A stretch of DNA of 64,000 nucleotides from Sphaerochaeta sp. (GTDB lineage: Bacteria > Spirochaetota > Spirochaetia > Sphaerochaetales > Sphaerochaetaceae). The translations under genes were made by a program, and so were the position numbers. Positions 46,015 to 50,110 of this stretch are shown here, one piece after another. How positions within the stretch are numbered: position 1 is the first letter of the stretch; each line of letters opens with the position of its first letter. The notes beneath the pieces are model-generated. The model saw only the letters and a program-made list of their open reading frames with translations, made no database searches and was not told where the DNA came from. The stretch covers positions 62,001-126,000 of the forward strand of contig JAKVPA010000001.1 of NCBI GenBank assembly GCA_022482495.1, given 5' to 3'.

Positions 46015-47145
46015 CTACAACATCATCGCAAGGCGCAATATCACCTCATCCAGCACCATCATCCCTTGTTCTGACAATGAAAAAGCCTGATCGTTGTCAT
46101 GAAACCACTCCAAAGGGAGAGCGCGGATCACGGAATGGAACATCCCGTCGAACGACTGATGGAACCGCGCTTCAAACCGCTGTTTGTCGATGCCCCAGAT
46201 GGTGCGCAGGTTGGTCAGCAGGAACTCTTCCATCTCCTCCGCCCCAGTCAACTTCCTCTCTTTATATCCCGATCCCACCTTGCCATGGGCGAAGGCTGAA
46301 AGATTCTGCGTGTTGCTCACTTCAGTAAACCCTTGGGGGAGCTGGAGACGGGACGCCGCATGGCTGCCTAACCCCAGATACGGCTGCAGACGCCAATAGC
46401 GGAGATTGTGCTGGCAGAACGCCCCATCCCGGGCGAAGTTGGAAACCTCGTAATGTACAAACCCTTTCTCCTTCAGATGATTCCAGACGGCAAACAGCAT
46501 GTCCGCCTGCAGGTGTCCGTCCGGCATCCGCATCTCCCCCGCCCTCACCCTTCGGGCAAGCGCGGTCTTTGGTTCCAGGGTAAGGCTGTAGACGGACAGA
46601 TGATCAGGATCGGAGACGGCAAGCAGTTGGTCGATGTCATCCGTCGCATCGGCAATCGTCTCCGTCGGGATGCAGGTGATCAGATCAAAATTCACCTGGA
46701 TGCCATAGGAAGCTTTCAAATTCATCAACCGCGCGATGCCACGCTCGTTCGTTTTCCTGTCACTGTTTCGCCCAAGCAAAGAAAGAAAGTCGGGACGCAT
46801 GCTCTGGATCCCCATGCTGACCCTGCTGACAAGGCCTTCGGCGAACAGCGGTTCGTACCGCTCCTCCAACGACTCAGGATTCATCTCCACCGTCGTCTCC
46901 CTGCTGGGGCCCGCGGCTTTGAGAAGGGATGCGATCTCTTCCGAGGGAAGACAGAACGGATTCCCCCCTCCCAGGAAGATCGTATCAAACGGACCATACT
47001 TCTTGACGGATTCCTCAATCTCCCGTCGTAACCTTTCGATATAAGGCGTGTGGAGATCTTTCCATGTACCGTATTCCTCACTGTAGAAAGCGCAGTACGC
47101 GCACCAACGGGTGCAGAACGGAAGATGGAGGTACAGACTGGTCAT
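46015..47145 (-). CDS. hemW: HemW-like radical SAM protein
   Basis: HemW is a radical SAM protein related to coproporphyrinogen oxidase HemN and is described as a heme chaperone. The 376-residue protein has the cluster motif in PFCTRWCAYCAF (three Cys), SAM-binding TIFLGGGNP (usually GGGTP), EMNPESL and SMGIQSM. The HemW-type C-terminal domain starts near HYEVSNFARDGAFCQHNLRYW. No heme synthesis genes are visible, so the substrate is uncertain. The ATG overlaps the lepB stop. Confidence 0.88.
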   Translation of the reverse strand: MTSLYLHLPFCTRWCAYCAFYSEEYGTWKDLHTPYIERLRREIEESVKKYGPFDTIFLGGGNPFCLPSEEIASLLKAAGPSRETTVEMNPESLEERYEPLFAEGLVSRVSMGIQSMRPDFLSLLGRNSDRKTNERGIARLMNLKASYGIQVNFDLITCIPTETIADATDDIDQLLAVSDPDHLSVYSLTLEPKTALARRVRAGEMRMPDGHLQADMLFAVWNHLKEKGFVHYEVSNFARDGAFCQHNLRYWRLQPYLGLGSHAASRLQLPQGFTEVSNTQNLSAFAHGKVGSGYKERKLTGAEEMEEFLLTNLRTIWGIDKQRFEARFHQSFDGMFHSVIRALPLEWFHDNDQAFSLSEQGMMVLDEVILRLAMML

Positions 47146-48143
47146 TTGTTTCCGAGATACGAGATGCGGGAGAGCGGCCAGAAGCGGAACAGGACACGTC
47201 CGTTGACATTCTTCTGCCAGACCGGTCCGAAGTACCGTCCGTCCCTGCTGTTGTCACGGTTGTCGCCCAGCGGCAACACCTGGCCTTTCCCGACGTACAG
47301 CCCTTCCTGGTACACGGCGCTCGCCGAACGTGCTGCACTGTCACTGGGATCAAACAGCGTTTTTGTGCGGCTGCGGGCCGCTTCGAACTGATACATGTCT
47401 TCAGGATATCGGGTGTTCTGCAACGTGCCATAGGCGGAGGCGAGATAGCCGGGTGTCTGTTTCACCCCAAGTTCCTGGTAGGCGTACAACGCACCCCACG
47501 CCTTGATGCCTTCGTACTGTCCTTCATCAAGGGATCGGATCGGAGCCTCGGAAAGACCGTTTTCCTTTCGAAAGGAATTTTCCGTCTGGAACGTGGTGGA
47601 TCCAGCTTTGCGGATCATCACGTTCCCTTCGTTGAAACGGATCACTTCTTCCGGGAAACCCACGGCGCGCTTGACCAGAAGGCGCTCCGCCACCGATCCA
47701 TCCTCGTTGCGGTCGATGTTCACCAACGTGAACGTACCGCTGTAGATGAACTGGGAGAGCACATTGAAGAACACGCCCTTGTTTGGGTATTCCGGATTAT
47801 AAAAGGTAATGATGTTGTCCCGATGGACCATCCGGTTTTTGGTGCCGATCTTCCTGCCGGCGGAATACAATTCCAACCCATAGCTGTTCTTCCCGACGAA
47901 CACCCTGTCCCCGATCTCCAATGTGTGGACCATTGAGGGGGAAGGGATGACAAACAGCTGGAACAGATACTGGTTGATCAGAATCACCACCACGATGGCG
48001 AACAGCAACGCGTCCAACCAGGAAAGCAACTCACCGACAAACGTACGGGGCTTTTGATTGGCTTTCTGGTATGCCTTGCGCGCTTTGCGCAACGTGAGGT
48101 ACGTTTCCGTCTTGGTCTGGATGACGAGCAGGAACTTGTTCAT
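47142..48143 (-). CDS. lepB: Signal peptidase I
   Basis: LepB cleaves signal peptides of exported proteins at the outer face of the inner membrane. The 333-residue protein has a basic cytoplasmic segment of about 45 residues and one membrane helix (about 47-66, LLFAIVVVILINQYLFQLFV, 20 residues). The catalytic Ser sits in IPSPSMVHTL and the general-base Lys in LLVKRAVGFP. The S26 signature GDNRDNSRDGRYFG follows. An insertion of about 100 residues lies between the last two motifs. The ATG at 48143 has no Shine-Dalgarno; TACGTT ends 7 nt upstream. hemW follows by ATGA. Confidence 0.93.
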   Translation of the reverse strand: MNKFLLVIQTKTETYLTLRKARKAYQKANQKPRTFVGELLSWLDALLFAIVVVILINQYLFQLFVIPSPSMVHTLEIGDRVFVGKNSYGLELYSAGRKIGTKNRMVHRDNIITFYNPEYPNKGVFFNVLSQFIYSGTFTLVNIDRNEDGSVAERLLVKRAVGFPEEVIRFNEGNVMIRKAGSTTFQTENSFRKENGLSEAPIRSLDEGQYEGIKAWGALYAYQELGVKQTPGYLASAYGTLQNTRYPEDMYQFEAARSRTKTLFDPSDSAARSASAVYQEGLYVGKGQVLPLGDNRDNSRDGRYFGPVWQKNVNGRVLFRFWPLSRISYLGNK

Positions 48144-48150
48144 ACATCGG

Positions 48151-48179
48151 AACGTAGCACAACCAGCCGCAGTTGACAA
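48151..48179 (-). promoter_or_regulatory. lepB promoter, predicted leaderless, sharing its -35 element
   Basis: On the minus strand TTGTCA (48179-48174) and TACGTT (48156-48151) are 17 nt apart, and the ATG follows after 7 nt. The -35 hexamer overlaps that of the opposite promoter on five of six bases. Confidence 0.65.
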
Positions 48180-48201
48180 GCGTATGGGCAACAAGTACTT
48201 T
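48173..48201 (+). promoter_or_regulatory. Promoter of the FGE-like gene, near-leaderless, sharing its -35 element
   Basis: A consensus TTGACA (48173-48178) is followed after 17 nt by TACTTT (48196-48201). The ATG comes 9 nt later, leaving a 5' leader of about 0-3 nt and no Shine-Dalgarno. Confidence 0.7.
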
Positions 48202-48210
48202 AGAGTCACT

Positions 48211-49650
48211 ATGAAGCACCCAGCTGAACTCCCTGAAGTCGACCCTGTCCATCTCAAACCATTTTTGGGAATGCAGCCGGGCCTGTATCTGTTGATCCTC
48301 TACCTTCTTCTCATCGCCGCGGTGCTCTTTGTGATCGGGTTCCTGCCGGGGGTTGTCCGCGGTGGGCGGTATGTCACGTTCCAAGGTACGCTCTCTGACA
48401 GCGGCGTGTACGTGGATGACATCTATCTCGGATCCACCGATTACCAGTATTTCATTGGCTCGGGAACGCATCAGATTACCGTGAGGAAAGCGGATATCGT
48501 AGTGACGCGCATCAACCTTTCCATCGACCATCCGGTGTTCTTCACCTGGCTGTTCCATCGCACCAGAAGGGTGGACCTTCCCATCACTGAAACGCTCAGC
48601 CAAGCGGAAAAACAAGCCATCATCCGTTTCGACCTTGAAGAAATCGCCCGGTACAGCGCCATCACGACGTTTGACAGCGTGACGGTCTACCCTCCCCTGT
48701 TCGCCAACCTCCAGACGGATGTGGAAGAATTGGGAATCGATCCCTCGGTCTATGGTCTGGCTGGCGCCTACATCACCAGCAATGAGATGTATCAGGACGC
48801 AAAGTCCGTCACCACGGATGACACGCTGTTCATCAAGGAACTCTCCGTGGCCGGCACGTTGTTTGGAGAAGAGGCGAGCAATGGAATGGCAGGAGAACCG
48901 GCGGTCCTCACCGAGACGGACCGCAAACGGGTTTCGCTGGATGCGGGGGACTTCACCATTGACGGCATCGCCTACCAATCCGCCACGTTCGTCATGGGCG
49001 GGGAAACAAAGGCTTCCTATCCCGATGTCAACCAGGCGGGTGTGACGCTGGATGTTCCTTCGTTCGCCATCGCGACGCTTCCCGTCTCCCAATGGCTATG
49101 GGCGCGATTCATACAGGACAACCCAACGTGGGCCAAGACCAATGTCAAGGAACTGTCGGAGCAAGGTTACGTGGATGAAAACTACCTGGCTTCCTTGACG
49201 TTAACCACTGCATTCTCCCCGACGGGAAGACCGGTGTACAACATCAGTTACTCCGCGGCGCAGGCGTTCTGCCAGTGGCTTTCCCTTCTGACCGGGAAAG
49301 AAGTGTTCCTTCCCAGTGAGGCACAGTGGAGCCTTGCGGCGCAAGGAGTTACCGATTACCGGCAGACATTGACGCTGGATGATGATGGCTCGACTACCCC
49401 CTCTTCCCTGCTTGGGGGCGTGTGGGAATTGACGGATACCCGCTACATTCCCCTTTCCCGTCTCTGTGGGTACACGGAAATCCACCAGCTTGCCGACCGC
49501 TGGAATATGGATGGGGATGTGATCGTCAAAGGCGGAAGTTATCTGAACAGTGGCATCACGGCATCCCAGGTCGGTGTCGTACGGCGTGAAGCGTGCGGAG
49601 ACCAACTGGGAGTGCGCATCGCATGGACGGTGGACAATGGGAAAAATTGA
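48211..49650 (+). CDS. Membrane protein with formylglycine-generating-enzyme-like domain
   Basis: The 479-residue protein has a short cytoplasmic N-terminus, one membrane helix (about residues 25-46, YLLILYLLLIAAVLFVIGFL, 20 residues), and a PEGA-like beta domain (about 52-130, GVYVDDIYLGSTDY). A C-terminal FGE/SUMF1-type fold (about 280-479) shows LPVSQWLWARFIQDNP, SAAQAFCQWLSLLTG, LPSEAQWSLAAQG and VKGGSYLNS. Catalytic FGE uses two conserved cysteines; near the C-terminus only REACGDQLGVRI is seen, so enzymatic activity is doubtful. It may be a ligand-binding or envelope protein. The ATG at 48211 is set by the promoter; an ATG at 48184 is alternative. It overlaps smpB by 14 nt. Confidence 0.7.
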   Translation: MKHPAELPEVDPVHLKPFLGMQPGLYLLILYLLLIAAVLFVIGFLPGVVRGGRYVTFQGTLSDSGVYVDDIYLGSTDYQYFIGSGTHQITVRKADIVVTRINLSIDHPVFFTWLFHRTRRVDLPITETLSQAEKQAIIRFDLEEIARYSAITTFDSVTVYPPLFANLQTDVEELGIDPSVYGLAGAYITSNEMYQDAKSVTTDDTLFIKELSVAGTLFGEEASNGMAGEPAVLTETDRKRVSLDAGDFTIDGIAYQSATFVMGGETKASYPDVNQAGVTLDVPSFAIATLPVSQWLWARFIQDNPTWAKTNVKELSEQGYVDENYLASLTLTTAFSPTGRPVYNISYSAAQAFCQWLSLLTGKEVFLPSEAQWSLAAQGVTDYRQTLTLDDDGSTTPSSLLGGVWELTDTRYIPLSRLCGYTEIHQLADRWNMDGDVIVKGGSYLNSGITASQVGVVRREACGDQLGVRIAWTVDNGKN

Positions 49651-50110
49651 CAAAAACGAGTTCAAGTTCTTGCAGAAGAACAAGAAAGCATATTTCAACT
49701 ATGAGATCGTGGAAGATCTGGAATGTGGCATTTCTTTGGAAGGAACCGAAGTGAAATCCATCCGGGAAGGACGGTTTTCGTTTGGTGACAGCTATATCAC
49801 GGCGGATGAACACGGCCTGAAGTTGATCGGTTTCACCATCCAACCGTACACGCATGGGAACATCAACAACCATGAACCTACCAGAACCCGGAGGCTGCTT
49901 GCCCATAAGATGGAGATCAAGCACCTCAGACGCAAAGTGGATGAGCGTGGTTTCACGCTCGTTCCGCTGGAAGTCTACCTGAAAGGGAATTTGGTGAAAA
50001 TGAAGATCGCCCTCTGCCGCGGCAAGAATGTCCGCGACAAGAAGGAAACGATCAAAGCCCGCGACATGGAGCGAGACACCCGTCGCGAGCTGAAACAACT
50101 GCAGTACTGA
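49637..50110 (+). CDS. smpB: SsrA-binding protein SmpB
   Basis: SmpB works with tmRNA to rescue stalled ribosomes. The 157-residue protein has the typical OB-fold: KKAYFNYEIVEDLECGISL, GTEVKSIREGRFSFGDSYI, then NNHEPTRTRRLLAHKMEI and VPLEVYLKGNLVKMKIALCRG (partly quoted). It ends with a basic helix KKETIKARDMERDTRRELK. GGTGGA lies upstream of the ATG at 49637. The stop abuts the fadD stop in a TGATCA palindrome. No ssrA gene is in the window. Confidence 0.96.
   Translation: MGKIDKNEFKFLQKNKKAYFNYEIVEDLECGISLEGTEVKSIREGRFSFGDSYITADEHGLKLIGFTIQPYTHGNINNHEPTRTRRLLAHKMEIKHLRRKVDERGFTLVPLEVYLKGNLVKMKIALCRGKNVRDKKETIKARDMERDTRRELKQLQY

Follow-up and report, generated by a model that had tools for sequence, protein, structure and literature searches.

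A predicted −35 element shared by two divergent promoters between lepB and an FGE-like gene, conserved across spirochaete families

Bacterial core promoter elements can be used on both strands of the same DNA. The bidirectional promoters have either a shared −10 element or −10 elements that overlap reciprocally, with transcription starts 7-25 bp apart (PMC10268837; PMC12825309); shared symmetric −10 promoters are the work of Warman et al. 2021, as cited in PMC11661796. Separate divergent promoters are not counted as bidirectional by these authors (PMC12825309). Another close case is the Pc/Pr pair of plasmid pLS20, in which the proposed overlap places the −10 of one promoter on the −35 of the other (PMC4207663).

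Here, we describe a locus of Sphaerochaeta sp. in which the common element would be the −35. It lies in a window of 64,000 nucleotides, the whole stretch of DNA that was analysed, corresponding to positions 62001-126000 of contig 1 of a draft genome of 2.25 Mb, of which 1.56 Mb were sampled for the genome-wide counts given below. The features, in window coordinates, are the following:

46015-47145, minus strand: hemW-like gene, from the ORF list, named by sequence resemblance
47142-48143, minus strand: lepB, signal peptidase I (S26), Pfam PF10502, E 9.6e-27
48144-48210, no strand: divergent gap between lepB and the FGE-like gene, 67 nt, occupied by both putative promoters
48156-48151, minus strand: predicted −10 of lepB, TACGTT, spacer of 17 nt, 7 nt to the ATG at 48143-48141
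48179-48174, minus strand: predicted −35 of lepB, TTGTCA, read from the sequence
48173-48179, both strands: predicted shared −35, TTGACAA, from the sequence and orthologue conservation
48173-48178, plus strand: predicted −35 of the FGE-like gene, TTGACA, read from the sequence
48196-48201, plus strand: predicted −10 of the FGE-like gene, TACTTT, spacer of 17 nt, 9 nt to the ATG at 48211-48213
48211-49650, plus strand: FGE-like membrane protein with PEGA-like and FGE-sulfatase-like domains, Pfam PF03781, E 1.6e-16
49637-50110, plus strand: smpB-like gene, from the ORF list, named by sequence resemblance

Our main reading, to which we give a probability of about 0.85, is that the 67-bp gap consists of two back-to-back promoters of the housekeeping sigma factor fused at their −35. 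Re-reading the sequence confirmed the coordinates and the two 17-nt spacings given by the first-pass annotation; of the two hexamers, TTGACA is consensus and TTGTCA is not, as it matches TTGACA at five positions out of six. Both −10 elements match TATAAT at three positions only (T1, A2 and T6), which is why a standard sigma-70 consensus scan of the region reported no promoter. On the lepB side, TGTGC ahead of the −10 forms a TGn extended −10, and promoters with a poorer −35 can be rescued by a TG in front of the −10. The gap leaves no space for a leader or a ribosome site on either side, and an Rfam search of the window returned no RNA. With −10 elements that are this weak (3/6 each) in the window alone, it is the comparison with relatives that settles how these putative promoters are to be read.

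The genes on both sides probably form two operons. The hemW-like gene overlaps the end of lepB, follows it on the same strand in 108 of 121 loci, and probably belongs to the lepB operon; the smpB-like gene overlaps the end of the FGE-like gene and is probably part of the FGE-like operon, and 81 of the 121 loci have it on the FGE side (the others mostly having too short a flank). The order hemW-lepB / FGE-smpB is widely kept among the loci compared, and the pairs lepB-hemW and FGE-smpB, both including housekeeping genes, are probably expressed together. The FGE-like protein has a hydrophobic N-terminal stretch, a PEGA-like domain, whose match is weak in the window protein and which is present in 10 of 15 orthologues, and a partial FGE-sulfatase domain; among solved structures, a profile matches the FGE-like part of the PorK/GldK lipoproteins. 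An in-frame ATG at 48184 was considered as the start of this gene and ruled out, as the alignment with relatives begins at 48211 and this choice would make the conserved −10 intragenic. Elsewhere in the class, several families have lepB followed by another LepB-like gene that is shorter (L116/L131, L111/L135, L114/L136 and L115/L137).

Relatives were gathered through a LepB alignment; the named ones are Sphaerochaetaceae and other Spirochaetales, such as Sphaerochaeta halotolerans, and in these, a divergent lepB/FGE pair separated by a gap of about 65 nt is the rule. TTGACA is invariant in 29 orthologues, a set anchored on TTGACA itself (a further locus, L028, is without it), and the seventh base is an A in 26 of them. 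A TAnnnT at a spacer of 17 is found in 28/29 orthologues on the FGE side and in 21/29 on the lepB side, where other spacers give 0-6 on either side; it is always the FGE side that has the consensus strand, and a TG often precedes the lepB −10. Across the family loci, the 7-mer and the outer positions of both −10 elements are rich in information, with low values, mostly 0-0.4 bit, in the spacers. For the first-pass annotation, close relatives that keep the gene order but have lost the element would have counted against the idea; when checked, the element proved to be retained.

The same gene pair and element are also found in other families of the class. For 106 distinct divergent loci, we took the best-scoring promoter on each strand without requiring any sharing. 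The two best −35 elements coincide in 81 loci: 79 in the TTGACAA register and two (L206 and L218) in which the shared element is TTGCAA, a true palindrome, with −10 elements retained on both sides. Four others (L010, L122, L125 and L151) were mis-scored, share the element in our other comparisons and were reassigned by hand, for a total of 85 loci out of 106. In these, as in the window, both strands have a −35 and a −10 spaced by 16-18 nt, and the elements overlap, as expected of overlapping divergent housekeeping promoters. The proposal of back-to-back promoters with one common −35 is, thus, strongly supported by conservation; the 21 loci that are without the shared element indicate that sharing is not indispensable. 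Twelve family labels include the shared state, which implies 12 changes on the LepB tree, where each of 500 shuffles required more; this state is likely ancestral; one has to keep in mind that the root of this tree is for drawing only and that several deep branches are long. Shuffling the lepB-proximal segment alone left 42% of sequences “shared”, TTGTCA itself being kept, so this null tests little and counts neither for nor against sharing. Two family labels, f19 and f24 (L121, L146-L148, L130 and L157-L169), are without the shared element; in f24, the LepB-like frame is longer (mostly about 570-660 aa), and the flanks that were fetched gave no FGE match. Recurrence in about a dozen spirochaete families suggests that selection maintains the arrangement. 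Such conservation shows the importance of both promoters, but not the usefulness of sharing itself.

If both promoters are active, TTGACAA would provide a consensus −35 towards FGE-smpB, and TTGTCA would serve lepB-hemW, where the TGn extended −10 probably compensates for the weaker hexamer. Region 4 of sigma would fit the 7-mer in a single orientation at a time, so that the housekeeping RNA polymerase would alternate between the two directions, setting the ratio of lepB-hemW to FGE-smpB and allowing interference between them, and a change in the 7-mer would be expected to affect both genes. The footprint of the holoenzyme prevents two polymerases from being bound at once, in agreement with the earlier proposal of one polymerase direction at a time. 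The “mutually exclusive” expression drawn from it does not follow: in E. coli bidirectional promoters, of which five were tested, basal activity was too low for steric competition, and interference was seen only when one direction was strongly active (PMC12825309). A regulatory switch is not required by the shared −35 account, nor is exclusive expression predicted by it.

The alternative that survives best leaves the anatomy of two fused promoters intact and concerns its value: both promoters would be real and their sharing functionless, a compact layout that was inherited, is hard to undo, as any change would harm both genes, and brings no useful coupling. We see the chances of sharing being without function as evenly balanced. 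Sharing has been lost several times while the gene pair was kept, as the 12 changes on the tree indicate, with new −35 elements for lepB arising nearby, and the little competition seen at basal activity in the E. coli shared-element promoters (PMC12825309) goes the same way. Against it, sharing was kept across the 12 family labels despite saturated spacers, and turnover to TTGCAA left the element shared, although neither observation proves usefulness. The more ambitious version of our reading, a deeply conserved promoter type in which a symmetric −35, rather than a symmetric −10, allows one site to serve two divergent leaderless operons and which is kept by selection for its effect on the ratio or the noise of lepB-hemW and FGE-smpB, is put forward tentatively and is rather doubtful.

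As the two genes diverge, each needs a promoter either in the gap or inside its neighbour. The FGE promoter could be the only real one, with TTGTCA and TACGTT accidental and lepB transcribed from inside the FGE-like gene. The lepB side is indeed the weaker one with respect to consensus, and its spacer-17 TAnnnT is kept less often among the orthologues; we nevertheless consider this explanation improbable. The seventh base of TTGACAA is needed by the lepB side alone; this base and the lepB −10 are conserved, unlike most spacer positions, and are lost together. Indeed, a lepB TAnnnT at 17 or 18 nt is present in 83 of 100 anchored loci, that is, in 83 of the 91 with the seventh A versus none of the 9 without it (Fisher p ~1e-8, uncorrected for kinship, related sequences not being independent). 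Moreover, where the element is unshared, lepB often has another −35/−10 pair equally far from its start (L185, L188 and L029); in the separated forms (L185, L186, L188 and L192), whose gap is longer (72-79 nt), the −35 of lepB is a new one, TTGCCA or TTGCCT, and has a 17-nt spacer of its own. Finally, L123, in which the FGE-like gene is not adjacent, retains TTGTCA-N17-TATGAT upstream of lepB.

Chance occurrence was estimated in the 1.56 Mb sampled, where TTGACAA is found at 154 sites; three of them have a TAnnnT at 16-18 nt on both sides, where first-order Markov sequences gave 0.1 on average, and only the one in the window sits between divergent genes. As TTGACAA is an inverted repeat of the 3+1+3 type (TTG-A-CAA), it could also be an operator, bound by a transcription factor governing both genes, rather than a −35, but we consider this very unlikely. 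The 7-mer matches the sigma-70 −35, most loci have a −10 at 17 or 18 nt on either side of it, and a dimer site would be expected to be longer; moreover, the double arrangement was seen in no other divergent gap of the 1.56 Mb sampled.

The two fused promoters would have a further consequence that the first-pass annotation missed. Polymerase starts about 7 nt past the −10, and the −10 elements lie 9 and 7 nt from their ATGs; both mRNAs should, therefore, be leaderless or nearly so, with transcription predicted to begin at each ATG or no more than a few nt away. Among orthologues, the distance from the −10 to the start is 6-11 nt on the FGE side; on the lepB side, it is 6-8 nt in 62 of 68 family loci, and lepB leaders can be longer outside the family. 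In the 1.56 Mb sampled, promoter-like −35/−10 pairs peak 6-9 nt from the ATGs of long ORFs (22, versus about 5 estimated from neighbouring distances), a peak suggesting a sizeable class of leaderless genes in this genome. Leaderless mRNAs are common in Leptospira interrogans, where about 440 were reported and transcription often starts no more than 10 nt from the start codon (PMC5243855). Starts close to the start codon are what is predicted for both genes here; those of Leptospira, which belongs to another spirochaete class, were mapped by experiment, whereas ours are placed from the position of the −10.

Our literature search, of incomplete coverage, found no described conserved shared −35, and there may be older work on individual overlapping pairs. 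Should both promoters behave as predicted, the locus would be a minimal unit, about 67 bp long and conserved in nature, with one 7-bp contact for two operons; it would extend the idea of bacterial promoter symmetry from the −10 to the −35 and make it possible to test polymerase competition cleanly, the transcripts not overlapping. Its natural variants (TTGACAA, TTGCAA and the separated forms) are material for relating sharing to expression ratio or noise.

Compared with known systems, the pLS20 Pc/Pr promoters (PMC4207663) are similar in that they are divergent, lie on the same DNA and cannot be bound at once; there, one of the promoters is weak and depends on the regulator RcoLS20, and a DNA loop is involved, whereas the lepB/FGE site has no known regulator. 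The likeness to the shared −10 bidirectional promoters is that of one near-palindromic core element used on both strands, with polymerase in one orientation at a time. In those promoters, the −10 is common; here, the −35 is common and the −10 elements are separate (48196-48201 and 48151-48156). Likewise, starts that are 7-25 bp apart there would be about 64 bp apart at the lepB/FGE site, pointing away from each other, and both this predicted distance and the separate −10 elements place it outside the definition of a bidirectional promoter (PMC10268837; PMC12825309).
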